A stretch of 36,765 bases of DNA from positions 1 through 36,765 of the forward strand of contig VXSY01000133.1 in assembly GCA_009837725.1 (NCBI GenBank), read 5' to 3'. The position numbers and the translations under genes are program-made. The notes under the pieces are model-generated. The model was not told where the DNA came from and searched no databases. It was given only the letters and a program-made list of their open reading frames with translations. Shown here one piece after another: positions 8,606 to 18,855 of this stretch. The DNA comes from Gammaproteobacteria bacterium (GTDB lineage: Bacteria; Pseudomonadota; Gammaproteobacteria; Pseudomonadales; Azotimanducaceae). Numbering within the stretch: position 1 is the first letter of the stretch; every line of letters starts with the position of its first letter.

Positions 8606-11600
8606 TCACCGTTGTCGCCAGAGCCAATCGAGCTCGGCGAATGCAAGCTGCCTCTCGAAGTTCTCGATGTTGTCGCGAACATTGATGATTAAGCAACGAT
8701 CGTTCCCGCCATTCATCGGACCCCTCAAGCCTCGTCCGATCATCTGGAAATACAGGTTGGGACTGTAGACCGGTCGTGCGACGATGATCGCCCGCGTTTT
8801 GGGCGCGTCAAAGCCCTCGCGGAACACCCCGTAGTTGACCAATGCTGCAATCTTGCCGGCGCGAAAGTCCTCGACGATGTTGCGACGGACGATCGACTCG
8901 GTGCCGCCGCTAACTGCCCGCGAAGGGATGCCTTTCGTGTTGAGTAGGGCCGCGACGGTTTGTGCGTGCTCGACAGATGTGGCGAATACCAGCGTGGGCC
9001 ACCCCCTGTTGCCGATCAGTCTCTCGTACGCTGCCACAATTCGTTCGGTGCGGTTTGCATCGCGTGCGATCCGAGACTCCATGCTGCGCGGGAGCCAAGC
9101 CGGGTGTGGCATCGCGTTAATCTGTTCGCGTTCTTCGTCATTGAGTCGAAATCCGCCACCGTCAATCACCTCGTGGTCTGCTCCGGCTATCACCCGCATC
9201 CCCTGCAGCTCTTTCACCGCCGCGACAGGGTCGTCACTGTTGAATGCGCCGAGGTCAAGGCGATTGGTCCCGTAGCGTCGTACCAAGCGCGCCGTTTCGC
9301 TTTCGTCGTGTCCTCGGTATGGGGTCGCCGTTAGGCCAATCAAGAATGGCTCGGTGTTCGTGCGACGGCGAGTGAAACCGATGTCCTCCATCACCGTCGT
9401 GAAGCTCGGCGCGAGGGTCCGGTGCGCTTCGTCGAAGACAACCAGCGCGAAGCTGCGCAGGAAGGAATACGCGACGGGTTCACGGTTCAGTCTGGCGTAG
9501 AGAGTCTGTATCGATGCGACGACTACATGCCGGTCGTTCTCCGGCATGGGTCGAGGCTGACCGGCCCACATCCTCGAAATGCGGAGCCTCGCTCCGGCCG
9601 TGCCCGCACTCGACCAAACCTGGCGCCAAGCCTCCACCGCTTGTTCGCACAGTTCGTCTCGGTCCGCCACCCACAACACGCCGCCCGAGAAGCCCCTGTT
9701 GATTGCTCTGACGACGGCTTCGACGGCAACCCGTGTTTTTCCCGACCCTGTGGGCAGGCTGATCATCCCGCGCCTGTGTTCCCCGCGACCGCGACCGAGC
9801 AGCATTGCACAGACGTTTTGGACGATCGTCTCCTGATATTGATGCAATGGCGGGAGGCTCAAGGGGCCTTCGACTTCGACGTACGGTGCGCGCCGCTCGT
9901 TGCGCTGTCCCGCCCATTGTGCTGAGAAGCCTAGCGCTTTAACGAACGTAACGGCCGATGCTGATCCAGCCCACTGACGCGGGGGACTGAGTTCCGCATT
10001 CAAGGCGTGGCGGTATTGCCTAAGCGCCGACGTGTGGTAGGTGGCAATCGCAGCTTCTGCCATTTGATTCGAGGAGGCTTTCGGACCGCTTTTCTCGAAG
10101 ACGGCGACTAAGGACTCGGGTAAACCACGCCGCAGCGCATCCTCGCCGACCGCGAGCGTCAGCCGGGCGGCGTCTGTCTCGCACGCGCGTATTCTGGCGC
10201 GGGCGGCTTCAGTGTTGGCTGGAGCGACGTAGCTTAGGACTTGTGAGACCTCATGGACGTCGAGCGGCAGACCTAGCTCTTGGCACACTGATCTCAGGTC
10301 CTCGGTGTCATCACCGGTAGCGACAAGGTAGATCTCAGTACCTTTTCGGAGGCAGTTCAGGGACAACGCGCCCTCGGCGATTCGAAGGCATCGAATCAGG
10401 TTGCATTCGGAGGCATCGCGATGCAGGTAAGGGGCGAGGCCAGGCCAAGCGTCGGTTAGTGGTACCGGCTCTTCTTCACCCGTGGGCTCAATGATGGGCT
10501 CCGAGAGGTCGAACGCCTCCTTGATCCGCGTGGCCATAGGCAGCGACAACAGTGCATTGAGCGTGGTTGGATTCGCGGGTCGGTGCCCAAGGGCATCTGC
10601 GAGGGGTGCGTGGGTGCCTGCGCACCAGACTCGGCCATGGCGGCGTAGCGCAAGCAGAGCCGGGTTCTCGCACTCAAGTGGCGGGTAGACGTCTTGCGTC
10701 TCGTGGCGCATCACCCACTTGGCAAAAGCCGCCTCCATCGAGAGCAGGAGGCTTGAGTAGCGCGCTTTGCCGCGGTCGGAGAGCAGTTCCAACGGATGCA
10801 ACGGACCGCTGGTATGCGTCGACTTGAAGCAAAGCCTGTCCCAATGCGGGTTTCTCGGGAGGTCACGTGCTGTGAACCTGACACGACATTGGGTCCGATA
10901 GTCGTTGAATCCCGGCTCTGTCGCAAAATCGTAGCGCTCTTGTGGTTCGCTCACGGCGCCGAGACTGTGGAGCAGTTCCAGGTCACGTGCGTGATGGTGG
11001 ACATCGGCAGCAACCCCCGCATCCTCGCCCGCTTCCTCGGACACGACCGCACCGGGTAGAAGGATGGCGTACAGTGCCTTCCAGCATCCGGATTGGGTTA
11101 GTACATGCACTCGGTGTGATCGGTTTCCAACAATGCTTGCGGCTTGGTTTGTTTCAATTTGCCTCGACGATGACCAGAATCGGCGCCATTGGACTTCCGT
11201 CGCAGCGTCTCCTCCGAGCGCTTCATTGGCGATGATTCGAAAGTACACCTCCGGTGCCAATGGCCCTATTCCTAGCTTCCCCAAGTTGACCAACGCGTCG
11301 GCGTCCGACGCGAGTTCCCGATTAACTAGGTTTGCGCCATCGATGGGGGCATCGTGATCGGCCGAAGGTAGGAAGACCGAGTCCGGGTCCGGCTCGGCCC
11401 ACTCGCCGGACTCAGTCCAGACCACTTTGCCCAGCGTGCCGGCCGCCTCGGAAGAAACAGATATGGCGGCAGCTACCCGTAATGCGGCCTTCGACGCCTC
11501 GATGGCTCGTTTCGGGGCGGAGCCCGCGACGAGCGCTTCAAGCCACTCGCTGATCGACGCTCGCGGCACTTGTTTTGGCCATCCGTCATGCGAATACACC

Positions 11601-13045
11601 CTGTCGACCTTTGCCATCCTGTCGCGGACCAGCGCACGGTGATGCACCCAGTTCTCGGGCCGTTTCTCGACGCTCTCCCACAGGCGCAACGCCTCCATGT
11701 CAGCCGAACGCGGCGCGACCCGGAGTTCGCGTGTCTTCCGAAGGTGGCCTCGCTGATCGGGAGTGATTGGGCAGCCCTGCAACAGACCGTCCACCGCGTC
11801 CCGCAGGCGATTGCTCTGTTCGGTATCTCCGGCCTCGCGTCGGCGCGGCAACGCGTCAAGATGCGACGCAGGATCTAACGTGCTCGCGAGATCCGGCAGG
11901 TGCTTTGCGGCAAGCCGGGCCGCTGCTTCGATCAAGTCATCGTTGTATGGCCCTGGCAGTAGGTTTTGCCGATCCTCGTTGGTCTTCCACGGCGCGTTGA
12001 GAATTCCGGCTAGGAGACACGTCGTCTGGGTGGGAAAGAAGTGCCAGTAATGGCCCGGTTCGTTCAGCCGGTCGAGTGGCGCAGCCCACCAAATTGGCAC
12101 CTCACCGTCGTCGTCTAGGGAACGTCGATCCGCCAAGGCATCGTCGGACAAGGTATGCACTGACCGAAAGCACTTCCACAGCGACCTGCCTAAGCCAGTG
12201 TCCAAGGAGATGCCATCCCCATCTGGCTCGGCATAGAGGTCACGCTCCACATCACCAGTCTCGAACGTCAGGTGACGTACATGGTCGACAAACAAAAGAA
12301 ACTCGGCGGGGAAGTCCTCGATTTGCTTGGCAAGGTCGTCGTGGGCGCCCGCATCGAGCGGCAGGCGCACGATGTTGCTCGCCCACGTCATCAACTCCGC
12401 CAGTTCGTCGTCTCGATCCGCTTCGTCCTTGGCGCTGATGCATGCCGGAAGCCTGAGGACCGGGTACTCGGTGGAGCGAGCGATCTCGGCTATGCGCTCA
12501 GCCGCAAGCTTTCCGTCGAACCGAAACGACCCGGATCGACCGAAAAATTCTGGCCGACTGGTCACACTCAGTACCGATTTGAAGCCGAGCCCGAACCGTC
12601 CGATCTCGGTCGTATTCCGTTTCGGCGACATGTGTGAAAACATCAGCGCTCGGACGCCGCGCGTACTGATCGGGTCACCGTCGTCGGCGCAGTAGAGATA
12701 GTTGCCGCGCAAGCGGACCAAGATGCTGCCACGATTGAGTCCCTGCTTCGTGCGGGTGAGAGCGGCGAGAGCGTCGGCACTGTTTTGGACAAGCTCGAAC
12801 AATTGTCGATGTGCGTATCCGCCGTGCGCGGTGTCACGTTCCTGTTTGGCGTGTTCTTCTACGAGGTTGGGCTGTGCTCGGTACGCTTGAAGCGTCTTCT
12901 CGGTCTCGTCGGCGATGAACTTGTGGATTCCTCCCCCGTGATCCAGCCATCCATCCGTCCGCTGCGTATCTGGCAGGTTGAACCGAGCGTTAGGATGAAA
13001 AAAACGCCCCTTGCTTGCCTTGGAGAAGTCGTACTCTTGCTTCAT
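8606..13045 (-). CDS. Antitoxin-leader / GHKL (sacsin-type) ATPase / SF2 DEAH helicase fusion
   Basis: A 1479-residue protein. Residues 1-25 (containing YDFSKASKGRFFHPNARF) resemble the N-terminus of antitoxins paired with small toxins, not any helicase. A GHKL/Hsp90-like ATPase of sacsin type follows: QLFELVQNSAD (81-91, N box), ADDGDPIS (120-127), GRFGLGFKS (149-157). About 900 residues without recognised motifs come next. The C-terminal third is an SF2 helicase: SLPTGSGKT (1096-1104), VVFDEAHR (1202-1209), GLTATPYR (1237-1244), LVFATSVEHA (1352-1361), FREGFDAP (1408-1415) and QMIGRGLRG (1434-1442). A role in DNA surveillance or antiphage defence is inferred. ATG 13045 lies 4 nt after the brnT stop; no ATG, GTG or TTG follows in frame before the ATPase domain. 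It is the last gene of a three-gene unit and its sequence looks less GC-rich than the flanks. Confidence 0.85.
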   Translation of the reverse strand: MKQEYDFSKASKGRFFHPNARFNLPDTQRTDGWLDHGGGIHKFIADETEKTLQAYRAQPNLVEEHAKQERDTAHGGYAHRQLFELVQNSADALAALTRTKQGLNRGSILVRLRGNYLYCADDGDPISTRGVRALMFSHMSPKRNTTEIGRFGLGFKSVLSVTSRPEFFGRSGSFRFDGKLAAERIAEIARSTEYPVLRLPACISAKDEADRDDELAELMTWASNIVRLPLDAGAHDDLAKQIEDFPAEFLLFVDHVRHLTFETGDVERDLYAEPDGDGISLDTGLGRSLWKCFRSVHTLSDDALADRRSLDDDGEVPIWWAAPLDRLNEPGHYWHFFPTQTTCLLAGILNAPWKTNEDRQNLLPGPYNDDLIEAAARLAAKHLPDLASTLDPASHLDALPRRREAGDTEQSNRLRDAVDGLLQGCPITPDQRGHLRKTRELRVAPRSADMEALRLWESVEKRPENWVHHRALVRDRMAKVDRVYSHDGWPKQVPRASISEWLEALVAGSAPKRAIEASKAALRVAAAISVSSEAAGTLGKVVWTESGEWAEPDPDSVFLPSADHDAPIDGANLVNRELASDADALVNLGKLGIGPLAPEVYFRIIANEALGGDAATEVQWRRFWSSSRQIETNQAASIVGNRSHRVHVLTQSGCWKALYAILLPGAVVSEEAGEDAGVAADVHHHARDLELLHSLGAVSEPQERYDFATEPGFNDYRTQCRVRFTARDLPRNPHWDRLCFKSTHTSGPLHPLELLSDRGKARYSSLLLSMEAAFAKWVMRHETQDVYPPLECENPALLALRRHGRVWCAGTHAPLADALGHRPANPTTLNALLSLPMATRIKEAFDLSEPIIEPTGEEEPVPLTDAWPGLAPYLHRDASECNLIRCLRIAEGALSLNCLRKGTEIYLVATGDDTEDLRSVCQELGLPLDVHEVSQVLSYVAPANTEAARARIRACETDAARLTLAVGEDALRRGLPESLVAVFEKSGPKASSNQMAEAAIATYHTSALRQYRHALNAELSPPRQWAGSASAVTFVKALGFSAQWAGQRNERRAPYVEVEGPLSLPPLHQYQETIVQNVCAMLLGRGRGEHRRGMISLPTGSGKTRVAVEAVVRAINRGFSGGVLWVADRDELCEQAVEAWRQVWSSAGTAGARLRISRMWAGQPRPMPENDRHVVVASIQTLYARLNREPVAYSFLRSFALVVFDEAHRTLAPSFTTVMEDIGFTRRRTNTEPFLIGLTATPYRGHDESETARLVRRYGTNRLDLGAFNSDDPVAAVKELQGMRVIAGADHEVIDGGGFRLNDEEREQINAMPHPAWLPRSMESRIARDANRTERIVAAYERLIGNRGWPTLVFATSVEHAQTVAALLNTKGIPSRAVSGGTESIVRRNIVEDFRAGKIAALVNYGVFREGFDAPKTRAIIVARPVYSPNLYFQMIGRGLRGPMNGGNDRCLIINVRDNIENFERQLAFAELDWLWRQR

Positions 13046-13049
13046 CCTT

Positions 13050-13364
13050 TCACCGGGCCATCGCTCGGGTTTCGAAATCCCTCCGCTCGCGCGGGGTCGC
13101 CGCCCGTGCCGAAATGACCCGGACCAACGGCTGGTCGTCCCGATGCCGGATCGTGTGGACCACGACCAACAGCCGGCCATCCTCCGACTGGCCGATTGTC
13201 ACCCGACGGTCTTCGACATCGCTGTGGTCCTCGTCTGGCATGGACTGAAGGAGTGGATCCCGGAAAACGGTGGCCGCTTGCGCGAAGGCGACGCCGTGGC
13301 GCCGTAAGTTGCTGGCCGCCTTGCCGGCGTGCCAGTCGAATTCCACTTCTTTTGGGTCGTCCAT
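13050..13364 (-). CDS. brnT: BrnT-family (DUF497) toxin
   Basis: BrnT toxins are small RelE-fold ribonucleases that stop translation and are normally neutralised by the gene just downstream. The 104-residue product shows the family pattern: FDWHAGKAASNLRRHGVAF (K15, N19, H23), RDPL, a DDRRVTIG-like EDRRVTIG, GRLLVVVHT and the C-terminal VRVISARAATPRERRDFE (81-98). It sits 24 nt after the RecD-like gene and 4 nt before the ATPase-helicase gene on the same strand, so it is inside the operon. No BrnA-like or other complete antitoxin gene is adjacent; the only trace is the first 25 residues of the next protein. Confidence 0.88.
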   Translation of the reverse strand: MDDPKEVEFDWHAGKAASNLRRHGVAFAQAATVFRDPLLQSMPDEDHSDVEDRRVTIGQSEDGRLLVVVHTIRHRDDQPLVRVISARAATPRERRDFETRAMAR

Positions 13365-13388
13365 CCATCATGTCACGCCTTAGTGGCA

Positions 13389-16300
13389 TCACCCGGCGAT
13401 CACCTCGTCGATCAGTCTCGCGACCTCGACCGAGTCGATGCCGCCCTCAGGGCCATCTTGGGTCTCAATGAGGACGTGTTCGGCGTCGTCACCGCGCTGC
13501 CATGGACGGATGCCAGCCGCCGTATATTCGGCACGCTTGCGCTTCCACCGCGCCCGATACCCCGGATCATTGAGCAAACCAAGGTGTTCCCAGTAGAACG
13601 TGATGCCCATCGCATAATCGGTGATGGTGAAGTCCGGATAGCGCACGCGCCCGCTGGGCAACCGTAGGGGTTGCTCATAGGCATAGTCGATGCCTCGCGA
13701 GTACAGCTTGTCGGCGATGATCACTTCGGATTTGGAGCGCACCAAGTCGCCATTTTCCGTTCGGTGGATTAAGCCATCCTCAAGGAAACGCGCATCGCTG
13801 CCCACAGCAGTTTCTTTGGGCGTAGGGGCCGAGAACAGGTTCGTCATACGCCTCGCTACCTCGGAGTGTTGGTCCGAAGAGAAACTCCGATACGTTGCAA
13901 GAGGACCTTGATGCAGGACGACCAACCGTTTTCGGTGCCGGGTCAATGCGGTATAGAGAAGCTCCCGGGACAAGAGCCAGCATGGATTGGTCAGCACGAC
14001 TAAGGTGTCCGTGAACTCGCTGCCTTGGGTCCTGTGAACCGTTAGGGCGTACGCCAGCTCGAGCGGGTTGTTGCCCTCATCGCCGAACTCGGCTCGTGAA
14101 AACCCGTACTTGTACCCTCGCTGACCAGCGAACTCCACCTCGATCTTCCACGGCAATCCTTTGTACTTCGCCTTCCGACCCTTGTACTGGCCTACTACGA
14201 TTCCGATGTCACCATTGGCGACATACGCCTCGCCTTCGGGTTTGGGCCAGACATCCCTCCTGCGGCTGTTGACGACGTTGATGACCTTGTCGCCGTAAAG
14301 GATGGATTGTGGCCCGATTGGTTGCGGAACCTTACGCGTCCACCCGCCTGCTTCGGCACGTTCCCGAACGGCTGATCGAAACCGGTCTTGAATCATACGG
14401 TTGAGCCAATCGACGCCAACTGAACCGGCCCGAATGGGTGAGAGGATTTGCCATCCATCGGCTTTCGCTGCAGCACCGGTATGGTCGCCGTATTCGTTGC
14501 GGAAGAAGGCATGTGGCAGGTCCGCGAATCTGTTGCCGCCAAGGGACTCTTCGAATCCTACCTCGTCGTCCGCGCCATCCAGTTCAAGTAGCCGGATCAT
14601 TTCGGCAAGCAGTTTATCTACAAGGTCCTGCGGGTGATTCCACTGGACAAGGCGGAGGGCCCCATCGCCGTCGTCGGCGTTGTTGTCGAGCACCGCGTCA
14701 ACACCAGGGTCCATCGCCCGCCCAGCGAACTGGGTCGCCAAGAGAACGTCGGGACGACCGCGTCCCCTTTGTCGACTCGGAATGGTGAGCTCCGCATAGC
14801 CGCCGTCGCACCGCGGAAAACGCGTGTCGACGCCGGCTGGCTCGTAGTTCCTAACGATGTCGGCAAACGGTCGGCCCGTTCCGATGGGCGGCAGCTGGTG
14901 GGGGTCGCCAACTAAGACAAACCGCTCTACATTGTGCAGCGCATCGAACAGCGCGGCCAGCTGTTCCTCCGTCAGCATCGAACATTCGTCCACGATTACC
15001 GTGCGGTAGTCGGCGCAACGTTCTGCTTTGGCGAAGGGGAAGTACGCCCGAGTGTCGGCGCGGTAACGCCGGTACCGCATCAGAAACTGAGCTAGCGTCT
15101 GCCCCGATCCGCGACGTTCCGTTTGTTCCTCGAGCCGGACGCGCGCCTTCCCAGTTGGCGCGAGTAGCAGCACTTCGTCCCTCGGCAGCAACGAGCAGAG
15201 CATCTTGAGCACCGTCGTCTTGCCCGTCCCAGCCGGACCGACCAGAACGGATAGACGGGAACGGAAAAGCTGCTCCAATGCGGCTGCCTTTTCCTCGCGT
15301 CGGCGTTCCTCTTCCCCATCCGGGTTGGCGTCACCCAGTGTCTTGTCGACAACCTCACGCCATCGCTGTGGAGTGCCGTGCGGACGTCCGCGCCGCCGAC
15401 CGTTCACCTCCTTCCGAATGATGGTGCGGCACGTCACCAGCCGGTCAAGTTGATAGGCTGGCTCGTCCGCCCCTGTGGTTGAGCAACCAACCACACCTCC
15501 AAAGGATGGTTCTGTTGTGTCGAGCACGCTTTCGCCTAACGGGCAAGGGGGGTGCAGCGGTTCTTCCCTTGCGCGAAGGATTAGCCAGCTCCTAGGTAGT
15601 AGCGCGTGCCCTTCCGAAGCAGCTTCCTCCAGAAGACGAACGGTTAGCGCCCGGACTCGGCGCTGATCGGCCGGATCGTCAAGCGCAGAGTCTTCGCGGT
15701 TCGCGTCACCAGGCACATCCGAGAACATCCCGCGGTCCACTATTGCGAACGAGATCGGATCTAAGCTGCTACGGTCCTGCTCGTAGAGCAGATAGGGGTT
15801 ACCGAGCACGTCCTCGTCGGTCAGGTTGATCCCGGCTGCGGACCTCTCGGTCTTGTCATAGATGCGCAACGCTTGGTCTTCGGTGAGGGCGCAACGGGCC
15901 AATAGCCTTAGAAGCGCGCGTCGCTTCCGTGGCAACTCCTGCCAACCGCTCCGGAATCCGGAAGTCAACATGCCAGCTAGAGAGCCGCCGAGTTTGGCGG
16001 GATCCTCTGTGATTGAGTCGAGGCATCCCCATGGGTCGTTTCCACCCTCCCGCTCGAGCTTGAGCTGGATCTCGTAGGCTAGCAACGTACCATGTTGGAA
16101 CCCCCACTCGTAGCCAAACGCGGCAATGGCCGATCCCAATCCTGGGAAGGCCCCGCGAGCACGCCAAATGCGGTTCAGTTCCGTGTCGATCCAAGCTAGG
16201 GCCTGATCCCAAGGTCCCTCAATTCGGGTCTGTATCCGGCGAAGCGACGAAGCACAGACAAGAAGCGACGCCACAGCGCCGTCCTGTGATAGTAGCTCAG

Positions 16301-17180
16301 AACCATAGGAGTACTCATCGAAGTGGTCGTCTGGGGCGAAGGCGACGAGATCTTCCGGTGCGACTCCTTCTTCCTCAGCCAAGGCAAGGGCCTCCCGGTA
16401 GGGAAAGAGGAAGCCGTCTGCGAACCCCGGTCGTATTGAATGGCCAACGTTGCGCTCCCAGAGTACGCACCGCATGCCGGCATCGTCCTTGCGCCGGTAC
16501 TCGACGGCTTCCCCAACGCTTGATACGCGACCGACTCCGATGATTACGCGGCGTGATTGCTCGGATAGCGGTGTGCGCTTGGCGTAGAAGAAGCAAAGCG
16601 AGTCGCCAGGCGTGACCGCGCTGAAGAACGTATCGAGGAGGGCAAGTTGGTTCCCGCGTTCCTGGAGCCATGCTGTGTTTGCGGGCGTGCCGTTCGGGTT
16701 CCGAATGTCCGGCTCTTGCTCTGGGATCCATCCGAGCTTAAGACGTTCGGCAAGCCCTACGTCACCTTCGACCTCCTCGCGCAGCATCCATCGGAATGGT
16801 ACGCAAGCGGCGGTGTAGCTTGGCTGTTGAAGGAGCGTGGGGAGATAGTGGCTGTGGGTGTCGGGATAAATCGAACTGTAGGGGTGCGTGATCGAACGGG
16901 TCAGGGCGAACGGGGCCATGAAGGAGGCCCGCTCACCGACGCAAGGCGGCAGGTCTCCCGGTGCGTCGGACGCGATCTGGTCGAGTCGCTGACCCGAACG
17001 GCGAACCTCCACAGCATCTTGTTTCTCTTCGCCGATTCGTCGGAGGATCAAGCAGCTTGTGTTGCCGAGCGGGTCATCACAAACGCAGCCATCCCAGCCA
17101 CGATCATGCCACGGTACGCGAATGGTGATGTGTTGGGTAGGAAGCTGTCTTGCTCCCTCCACGGAGGCGTATGGTGCCAT
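13389..17180 (-). CDS. RecD-like SF1 helicase with C-terminal PD-(D/E)XK-like domain
   Basis: A 1263-residue protein. The N-terminus has an ordered Cys/Trp/His-rich segment (HITIRVPWHDRGWDG at 17-31, LPPCVGERASFMAPF at 77-91, VPFRWML at 127-133) that I recall from large uncharacterised ATPases, which supports ATG 17180 over ATG 16919. The SF1 motor shows GPAGTGKTT (648-656), APTGKAR (674-680), VIVDECSML (728-736), VLVGDPHQLPPI (755-766), AYALTVHRTQGSEF (1043-1056) and YTALTRHRKRLVV (1076-1088), closest to RecD2/TraA-type helicases. The C-terminus has SKSEVIIADKL (1149-1159), RYPDFTI (1180-1186) and FYWEHLG (1195-1201), a PD-(D/E)XK-like arrangement whose E-x-K lysine is not evident. It is the first gene of the island operon. 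A nuclease-helicase role in defence is inferred. Confidence 0.83.
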   Translation of the reverse strand: MAPYASVEGARQLPTQHITIRVPWHDRGWDGCVCDDPLGNTSCLILRRIGEEKQDAVEVRRSGQRLDQIASDAPGDLPPCVGERASFMAPFALTRSITHPYSSIYPDTHSHYLPTLLQQPSYTAACVPFRWMLREEVEGDVGLAERLKLGWIPEQEPDIRNPNGTPANTAWLQERGNQLALLDTFFSAVTPGDSLCFFYAKRTPLSEQSRRVIIGVGRVSSVGEAVEYRRKDDAGMRCVLWERNVGHSIRPGFADGFLFPYREALALAEEEGVAPEDLVAFAPDDHFDEYSYGSELLSQDGAVASLLVCASSLRRIQTRIEGPWDQALAWIDTELNRIWRARGAFPGLGSAIAAFGYEWGFQHGTLLAYEIQLKLEREGGNDPWGCLDSITEDPAKLGGSLAGMLTSGFRSGWQELPRKRRALLRLLARCALTEDQALRIYDKTERSAAGINLTDEDVLGNPYLLYEQDRSSLDPISFAIVDRGMFSDVPGDANREDSALDDPADQRRVRALTVRLLEEAASEGHALLPRSWLILRAREEPLHPPCPLGESVLDTTEPSFGGVVGCSTTGADEPAYQLDRLVTCRTIIRKEVNGRRRGRPHGTPQRWREVVDKTLGDANPDGEEERRREEKAAALEQLFRSRLSVLVGPAGTGKTTVLKMLCSLLPRDEVLLLAPTGKARVRLEEQTERRGSGQTLAQFLMRYRRYRADTRAYFPFAKAERCADYRTVIVDECSMLTEEQLAALFDALHNVERFVLVGDPHQLPPIGTGRPFADIVRNYEPAGVDTRFPRCDGGYAELTIPSRQRGRGRPDVLLATQFAGRAMDPGVDAVLDNNADDGDGALRLVQWNHPQDLVDKLLAEMIRLLELDGADDEVGFEESLGGNRFADLPHAFFRNEYGDHTGAAAKADGWQILSPIRAGSVGVDWLNRMIQDRFRSAVRERAEAGGWTRKVPQPIGPQSILYGDKVINVVNSRRRDVWPKPEGEAYVANGDIGIVVGQYKGRKAKYKGLPWKIEVEFAGQRGYKYGFSRAEFGDEGNNPLELAYALTVHRTQGSEFTDTLVVLTNPCWLLSRELLYTALTRHRKRLVVLHQGPLATYRSFSSDQHSEVARRMTNLFSAPTPKETAVGSDARFLEDGLIHRTENGDLVRSKSEVIIADKLYSRGIDYAYEQPLRLPSGRVRYPDFTITDYAMGITFYWEHLGLLNDPGYRARWKRKRAEYTAAGIRPWQRGDDAEHVLIETQDGPEGGIDSVEVARLIDEVIAG

Positions 17181-17660: not shown

Positions 17661-17730
17661 GCGGGCCGTTGCGCGATCGTCGACATTGCTGTCCAATCGC
17701 GATGCGTTTTACCAATTGTAGGTCCGCCGC

Positions 17731-18855
17731 ATGGTCACCGTTGCCGACGACATTCCCGAAAAGCTAAGACCAGCCGCATCGGCGGCGCTCAAGTGGGTCA
17801 ACGAGGAGCGCGGTGCCGCCTTCAAGCTCACCGGGGTCGTGGATGCCGACGCAGCGCTCGCGGCACCTGCCGACGACGCGGTCGAGTTCGGTTTGGTGCT
17901 TTGCGAAGACGAGGTGTGCCTGCGCGAGCAGGTTCGGGTCGAGCGGCAAGACGGTCGATTTCAGGTCTCTGCGGTGGAAGCACCGTCCTCGCTCATCCCC
18001 CCACTTCTGGACCCGCCTCGAGGTGTGCGCCGCGACTGGCTCGATGGTCAGCTCAGCACCCGCGAGTTCGCCGTGCTCCTCGTCTATCGCGGGCTGTGGT
18101 GACCCCCCTGTCGCTCCGAGTTGCGGAGCTTCGTCAAGTCCGGCGTCCTGGACGCGATTCGTGCCGCGGGCGGGGAACTGTTCGGCCTCACCAGCGAGCC
18201 GCAGAGTCTTGCCACCGAGGCGGAACGAGCTTGGGAACTCGGCTATCCGTGCGTCGGCGATCCGCACCACGAGATCAAGGAACGCTGTCGGGACAAGGGG
18301 TTCCTCAGTTTCTTCGCCAACGAAAACTCGGGACATCTGTGGATGCGCACGTGGGCCAGCCACCCGAAGGGCTACTACCAGCCCGCCGTGCTGGCGGTGC
18401 ATCGGAGCGGTCGCGTGCTCTATCGGTGGCGCTGCCGTCCCACGCACGAGAACATGAGCGGCGCCGGCCAACGGCCGACGCCGCAGCATGTCTGGCAGGA
18501 GATTGAGGCGCGGCTCGGCAAGGATGTGCCAGATGCGGAACTCGACGACGCTCCGGAGTTCCGCCGCAAGGACGCGTCGTGGCCGATGTTCGTGGGCTTG
18601 ATGCTGGCGCACGGCTGGTTCTTGCGCCCGCGGGCGTTCCCGCTACCCCGCGAAGGCGACAGGCCCTCGGTGCCGCCGCAGCGGATGCGGCGACGCGTTG
18701 CCGTTTTCGTTGCGGCTTGGATCGCCGCGTTTGCGTTCCTGCCAAGTGCTTGGGTGGCAGGCGCGTTCGCGCTTTGGGCTGTGGTCGCCGGCGTGGGCGT
18801 GGCGCAGGTGAATGCGTGGTTCCAGAACATTCCAGAGGGTGAACCGGACGGCTGA
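17731..18855 (+). CDS. Probable selenoprotein: peroxiredoxin/thioredoxin-fold protein with Sec124
   Basis: Two open frames in the same phase are separated only by TGA 18100-18102. Read through, they give one 374-residue protein: an N-terminal domain, then IPPLLDPPRGVRRDWLDGQL and VLLVYRGLW-U-PPCRSELR, a thioredoxin-fold strand-loop-helix with the redox motif U124-x-x-C127. In the AhpC/TSA-like family this position is the peroxidatic Cys (RGxWCPxC). Downstream sequence keeps the fold (AIRAAGGELFGLTSEPQ, VGDPHHEI, QPAVLAVHRSGRVLYRW), and two transmembrane helices near the C-terminus (about residues 315-355) suggest membrane anchoring. A SECIS-like hairpin follows the TGA. ATG 17731 is fixed by an in-frame TAG at 17719. 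A thiol peroxidase or disulfide reductase role is inferred. The alternative is a nonsense-mutated Cys homologue, which is less likely given the exact position. Confidence 0.82.
18100..18136 (+). promoter_or_regulatory. Candidate bacterial SECIS element
   Basis: After the TGA, GCTCCG (18113-18118) and CGGAGC (18124-18129) form a perfect 6-bp stem closing the 5-nt loop AGTTG, whose second base is G. The loop begins 16 nt after the TGA. Bacterial SECIS elements, as I recall, need a loop roughly 16-37 nt after the UGA, a 3-14 nt apical loop with G in its first two bases and an upper stem of at least 4 bp; all are met. TGAC (18100-18103) can also pair with GTCA (18133-18136) as a lower helix, placing the UGA at its base. 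SelB would bind the apical loop. Confidence 0.72.

Follow-up and report, generated by a model that had tools for sequence, protein, structure and literature searches.

A candidate selenoprotein family from Gammaproteobacteria that joins an N-terminal cysteine pair, a UxxC thioredoxin-fold domain and a C-terminal hydrophobic stretch

Does a TGA codon that interrupts an otherwise open frame in a gammaproteobacterial genome separate two genes, or does it encode selenocysteine (Sec) in a single redox enzyme? The question is raised by one gene-sized frame within a 36,765-nucleotide stretch of DNA (the window, by which we mean the whole stretch that was analyzed). When positions 17731 to 18855 of the forward strand are translated with TGA read as U, the result is 374 residues whose sole internal stop, TGA 18100-18102, falls at residue 124 within YRGLW-U-PPC. 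This agrees with the original prediction, which had described one continuous frame broken at a thioredoxin-motif position, a partner Cys at +3 (Cys127, invariant in 49 of 49 complete proteins) and an N-terminal extension of about 95 residues. We conclude that the window gene is very probably a selenoprotein in which UGA 18100-18102 is read as Sec; actual Sec insertion is what we infer from the comparisons that follow. The elements of the reading frame are these.

17720 to 17722, + strand: weak Shine-Dalgarno-like AGG, separated from the ATG by 8 nt
17731 to 18855, + strand: candidate selenoprotein gene of 374 residues with a single internal UGA (Sec) and a terminating TGA at 18853 to 18855
18100 to 18102, + strand: candidate Sec UGA codon, residue 124 of W-U-P-P-C
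18109 to 18111, + strand: presumed resolving Cys127 of the UxxC motif, present in 49 of 49 complete proteins

The AGG is also found ahead of the ATG in two homologous loci, L019 and L020. The length of the frame is weak evidence, because other frames of the same DNA are also open, one for 395 aa and one on the opposite strand for 282 aa; it is the conservation of the TGA in homologues that lifts this frame above chance. Two metagenome-assembled genomes (MAGs) labeled Gammaproteobacteria, SB0662_bin_60 and IRC4_bin_23, encode proteins 92 to 94% identical with TGA at the same codon, and a 52% relative in a further genome (G039) has likewise kept it. A four-row profile built from these three and the window was searched against 206 genomes of the same family, scoring the best nine or fewer candidates per genome; 65 genomes gave some match at E 0.001, and 64 places in 53 genomes scored above 150 bits. 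We read 66 loci, namely these 64 places plus L019 and L020, which probably repeat L036 and L037. One of the 66, L099, is a 3' fragment that begins past the site, and all of the remaining 65 site-covering loci carry TGA after W. The motif is W-TGA-x-P-C wherever it is readable (L096 has Ns there), with W-U-S-P-C in L112 and W-U-R-P-C in L097, a copy that has two further internal TAG codons and looks decayed.

A wider profile, searched against 390 genomes, added five full-length copies from other families of the order, spread over four genomes and again all with TGA. The total is therefore TGA in 70 of 70 fetched site-covering loci, a set that includes two probable repeats and reaches down to 38% identity with the window, or 63 + 5 = 68 site-covering copies in 57 genomes, every one with TGA after W. 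Among the best five or fewer candidates scored per genome, which was also the depth of the order search, no full-length copy beside the window's own appeared in 369 genomes of the class (narrower profile) or in 398 genomes of the phylum (wider profile). No relative turned up in the viral contigs and plasmids searched. Two loci deserve mention in their own right. In L128 (G201:C38:31088-33291) only residues ~2-30 and 307-373 remain, side by side, and the locus is either what a deletion has left of the gene or an assembly error. In L112 (G302:C99) the copy is complete, with its W-U-S-P-C motif, a longer spacer within the N-terminal Cys pair and a broken SECIS stem (three pairs); the copy may be in early decay, or its SECIS may be of another form.

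In stop-free partial homologues, the aligned position is occupied by Cys. At 59 loci outside the core set we found 50 Cys, five full-length TGA copies and four short TGA copies. The 50 stop-free loci are the fetched part of the stop-free matches, with two places counted twice (L027/L143 and L070/L145), and their Cys codons divide into 27 TGC and 23 TGT. An in-frame UGA at a redox position that aligns with Cys, the pattern by which bacterial selenoproteins are recognized, is thus present here (TGA in 70 of 70, Cys in 50 of 50), and the proposed check of residue 124 against homologues came out in favor of Sec. These partial homologues span mostly the thioredoxin part only; a full-length Cys form is absent from all 68 site-covering copies, and one could have been missed because only the best nine or five candidates per genome were scored.

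Immediately 3' of the TGA lies a hairpin of the kind expected for a bacterial Sec insertion sequence (SECIS).

18113 to 18129, + strand: bacterial SECIS-like hairpin, stem 18113-18118 with 18124-18129, loop 18119-18123 (AGUUG)

It starts 10 nt after the TGA, with 6 bp, a loop of AGUUR and 16 nt from UGA to loop, and its site is common to 60 distinct TGA flanks (from 63 complete flanks). The published bacterial rules ask for a loop of 3 to 9 nt, a stem of 4 to 16 bp, a G within the first two loop positions, 16 to 37 nt from UGA to loop and a minimum free energy (MFE) of at most -7.5 (PMC13188914); a loop of 5, a stem of 6, the AGUUR sequence and the 16-nt spacing all agree with these rules as given there. 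The MFE, also within the limit, is -15.3 kcal/mol for the window 51-mer and -9.96 for the consensus, with a folding share of -9.36. Across 57 distinct rows, 97.1% of the 342 stem cells are paired and two pairs are changed on both sides (33 such cells). In cells paired, in cells changed on both sides and in covariation score, none of 500 shuffles came up to the observed value. The tallies of doubly changed pairs and of pair types show no excess over shuffles, and hairpins slid to other positions as controls paired at 25 to 50%. Taken alone, the window hairpin is no stabler than its shuffles (z -0.37), of which 68 in 200 did as well. The stem is kept while the amino acids that it encodes vary (Phe..Ser, Ser..Ser and Leu..Gly forms); one stem pair is G-G in seven rows, namely six Ala..Gly forms and L112, and G-A in one row, the Ala..Ser form L123. 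Codon choice within the hairpin is nearly frozen: its Leu codon is TTR in 60 of 60 flanks, although TTR makes up 547 of the 2010 Leu codons counted over these genes, this site among them, its Arg is CGC and its Glu GAG in 59 of 60 each, and its Ser/Gly codon is AGC or GGC in all 60. Part of this conservation follows from the hairpin being coding as well.

The machinery to read such a codon is present in the host genome, an assembly of 4.66 Mb in 303 contigs with 95.8% completeness. There, selB reaches 380 bits (curated cut-off 242), selA 515 bits (268), selD 245 bits (125) and tRNA-Sec 67 bits (gathering cut-off 47); selA, selB and tRNA-Sec share one contig, C70, and selD is on C108. Both genomic checks that the original prediction had proposed, for selA, selB, selC and selD in the same assembly and for a bacterial SECIS, were thus borne out, the hairpin being present, conserved in homologues and covarying. 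Of 61 genomes sampled within the same family, 51 have selB above cut-off, as do 48 of the 57 genomes that carry the selenoprotein gene and 25 of 28 carriers with completeness >=90% and contamination <=5%. No selB was found at E<=1e-70 in nine of the 57 carriers, all nine being assemblies of at least 70 contigs; three of these nine are more than 90% complete (G271 at 96%, G324 at 96% and G160 at 91%).

Three other readings of the interrupted frame were weighed, and all were rejected. The first is that the locus comprises a pair of genes, one encoding 123 residues up to TGA 18102 and the other beginning at TTG 18121, which is what a gene caller would report; in its favor, both pieces are open reading frames under table 11. 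The codon at TTG 18121 is TTA, however, which is no common start, in 41 of 60 distinct homologues; the PF00578 match (residues 113-184) runs across the TGA; and none of the 70 site-covering loci has the two parts lying apart, another stop codon (TAA or TAG) or a gap at the site. Relatives that begin at TTG 18121 without the upstream part, which would have favored a split, were not found, since close and distant relatives alike have both the upstream part and the TGA, and we regard two genes as highly improbable. A pseudogene or a sequencing error is less probable still. L097, with its two extra TAG codons, and L128, with only its ends left, speak for a pseudogene and imply that decay does occur in this lineage. 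The window copy has no internal stop other than TGA 18100-18102, and nonsynonymous divergence (dN) was estimated by the Nei-Gojobori method on each side of the TGA in nine pairs and was lower than synonymous divergence (dS) on both sides in all nine, at ratios of 0.07 to 0.37 (dS saturated with L039), a sign of purifying selection that argues against a pseudogene or an error. For the window against L019, dN/dS is 0.055/0.242 before the TGA and 0.023/0.345 after it; against L020 it is 0.073/0.303 and 0.029/0.365. Recurrence of the same TGA in 53 of 206 family genomes and four outside the family argues against them as well.

The UGA might also be read as another residue, such as Trp, or serve as a regulated stop that yields two products. 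Some truncated product is expected at any Sec UGA, and this is the point in favor of such a reading. Against it stand the aligned Cys, seen in all 50 of the stop-free partial homologues fetched, the presence of Sec machinery and a SECIS-like hairpin, and the fact that TGA also terminates the same gene; we consider this reading, too, very improbable.

The architecture of the full-length protein, as far as sequence defines it, is as follows.

17731 to 18015, + strand: N-terminal domain, about residues 1 to 95, predicted as one long helix and a four-stranded sheet
17902 to 17919, + strand: invariant Cys pair C58 and C63 (C-x4-C), in 49 of 49 complete proteins
18022 to 18516, + strand: thioredoxin-fold AhpC/TSA-like (SelL-related) domain, about residues 98 to 262, outer limits estimated
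18694 to 18816, + strand: C-terminal hydrophobic stretch, presumed membrane hairpin, about residues 322 to 362, from hydropathy

The window protein belongs to the AhpC/TSA superfamily, matching PF00578 with 29.9 bits (curated cut-off 26), and PF00578 is matched at E<=0.1 by 28 of 28 members. Weak Pfam matches were also seen to FA_desaturase (in 8 of 28 members, with E 5.7e-4 at best; in the window protein, residues 271-366 match at E 0.29), to DUF3040 and TctB (one member each) and, in the window protein, to DsbB (E 0.083). A sequence-profile search of the PDB and a search of PHROGs with two proteins gave no match at 0.01. Hydropathy places the hydrophobic stretch at the C terminus of all 49 complete proteins and finds no N-terminal hydrophobic segment in them: no 19-residue window above 1.6 starts before 150 residues past the Sec, and the first 40 windows stay at or below 1.19. 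Two C-terminal transmembrane helices had been predicted; the hydrophobic stretch itself stands, and the two-helix form is suggested by hydropathy and by a low-confidence structure model (helices 316-334 and 339-365). That model (pLDDT 52, from three near-identical rows) is too poor for the thioredoxin part, so that sequence is the basis for the fold limits, the relay and the topology. The charges ahead of the hydrophobic tail (median 3 K+R, 2 D+E) hardly decide orientation. No Cys is invariant in the part after the thioredoxin domain among the 49 complete proteins, and the family splits into two subfamilies.

What might such a protein do? SelB and Sec-tRNA-Sec would decode UGA 18100-18102 as Sec, directed by the hairpin just 3', and the product would be anchored in the inner membrane via its C-terminal hydrophobic hairpin with the enzyme part facing the cytoplasm. 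Enzymes with a thioredoxin fold and a UxxC motif use the first residue for attack and the second for resolution; here, Sec124 would act as the nucleophile and Cys127 would resolve, and the thioredoxin-fold domain would reduce a substrate of disulfide or peroxide type in or close to the membrane. The resulting selenenyl-sulfide might then be reset by cellular thiols or by the protein's own invariant C58/C63 pair, the N-terminal Cys pair serving as a built-in relay. A membrane-anchored, cytoplasm-facing selenenyl-sulfide/disulfide reductase is the likely function; internal relay through C58/C63 is possible and somewhat doubtful, and both the topology and the catalytic direction are presumptive.

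A peroxidase proper, whether of the peroxiredoxin (Prx) type or a lipid-hydroperoxide reductase, differs from this proposal on function only, as it too is a Sec protein. The AhpC/TSA fold, with PF00578 matched at E<=0.1 by all 28 members, favors it, and a membrane anchor would put the enzyme close to lipid peroxides. The active site of Prx selenoproteins is given as PxxxTxxC/U (PMC13188914), however, and R120-GLW-U124-PP-C127 has neither the P nor the T at those places. Because this motif is absent, peroxidase activity should not be assumed, and since Sec124 takes the place of the TxxC Thr of true Prx, the enzyme is likelier to be a reductase of thiol-disulfide type than a classical peroxidase. 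The UxxC group is termed Prx-like thiol:disulfide oxidoreductase in Table 1 of PMC13188914, and its motif has been described as thioredoxin-like (PMC1088965). We therefore think a true peroxidase unlikely, and of the label "peroxiredoxin-like" in the original prediction we retain the fold and drop the Prx motif.

The neighborhood gives no hint at a substrate: among 35 loci (33 fetched flanks, L019 and the window) there is no conserved neighbor. The largest neighbor cluster, a short-chain dehydrogenase, occurs at seven loci and at varying distance, and a GST-like gene seen by eye ~1.1 kb from the gene start in L161, L164, L174, L176 and L173 is found at too few loci to serve as an argument. In L101/L173 (G162:C63), a second selenoprotein-like frame (FRSAVWUPPCWTQL) is the same-strand neighbor of the subfamily B gene; when the other 34 loci were scanned for such motifs, none showed a frame of this kind beside the gene. 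Other W-U-x-x-C Prx-like frames of different make-up occur in the same lineage (L190, L191, L198, L199, L202, L208 and L130-L133), with the motifs FYRGHWUPAC, FYRSAVWUPPC and KFFRAHWUPYC and short FYRGHWUPFC forms of ~165 aa, which suggests an expanded Sec-based Prx-like repertoire in this lineage. Upstream of the selenoprotein gene, window positions 8606-17180 on the - strand hold adjoining open reading frames of 1524 and 1263 aa, the first with what we take to be DEAD-type helicase motifs and the second presumably a UvrD/RecD-like ATPase by its look.

Among the copies examined there is loss of the gene and no Sec-to-Cys conversion. That no full-length Cys form was found is unusual, and we tentatively suggest, as a reading close to evenly balanced, that Sec is not exchangeable for Cys here and that the family is a membrane-anchored two-center relay (N-terminal Cys pair plus UxxC), confined to one gammaproteobacterial order as sampled and divided into two subfamilies by duplication. 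The lack of conversion would make the family hard to see for methods that seek full-length Sec/Cys pairs. According to the account of deep-Sep, nearly every selenoprotein has many Cys homologues, and the tool may miss those without them (PMC12013277); the 68 copies without a swap illustrate that blind spot and are also a natural experiment on the retention of Sec. Table 1 of PMC13188914 lists 119 prokaryotic selenoprotein families and subfamilies, and no entry in that table combines an N-terminal Cys pair, a UxxC domain and a membrane anchor; nor did a search of open-access papers turn up such an architecture. The locus had been called undescribed-looking, and this holds for the architecture, which is missing from that table and for which the window protein has no NCBIfam match at E 0.1 (only ResA at 0.21, far below cut-off), whereas the thioredoxin part is of a known class, the Prx-like/SelL-related UxxC selenoproteins. 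What we describe looks like an overlooked selenoprotein family with its own architecture, and a well-supported candidate addition to the 119, its domain make-up and anchor being unlisted in that table.

How does it compare with known systems? Among NCBIfam families, SelL-related NF040769 shares the thioredoxin fold and is the one matched by most members (22 of 28, best E 5e-7), with ResA matched by as many; none of 23 genomes searched exceeds the curated 120-bit cut-off of NF040769, and the family described here has two additional parts, the domain with the N-terminal Cys pair and the C-terminal anchor. SelL itself has UxxU. It has been called "SelL (a Prx-like protein)" (PMC2398784), and the Sargasso Sea and GOS surveys had already yielded Prx-like UxxC selenoproteins (PMC1088965, PMC2398784). 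With the Prx-like thiol:disulfide oxidoreductase selenoproteins (UxxC/UxxU; PMC13188914) our family shares PF00578 and Sec as the first residue of UxxC. Prx-like 1, in contrast, has 2,740 Cys homologues in the GOS data (PMC2398784), whereas our searches yielded no Cys form of full length and the domain composition is not the same. The GOS entries "Unknown_2/Prx-like 2" and "Prx-like 3/Unknown_3" (PMC2398784) likewise consist of a Prx-like selenoprotein fused to a conserved-Cys domain. Unknown_3 has three conserved Cys with a CxxC, unlike our family, which has no invariant Cys after the thioredoxin domain. Prx-like 2 weakly resembles PF04592 (PMC2398784), which no family member matches at E 0.1; Unknown_2 could be the same as the family here. 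The peroxiredoxin selenoproteins (TxxU), finally, have the AhpC/TSA fold in common with the window protein, but in the latter Sec occupies the Thr position, Cys127 the peroxidatic position, and the PxxxT element is missing.
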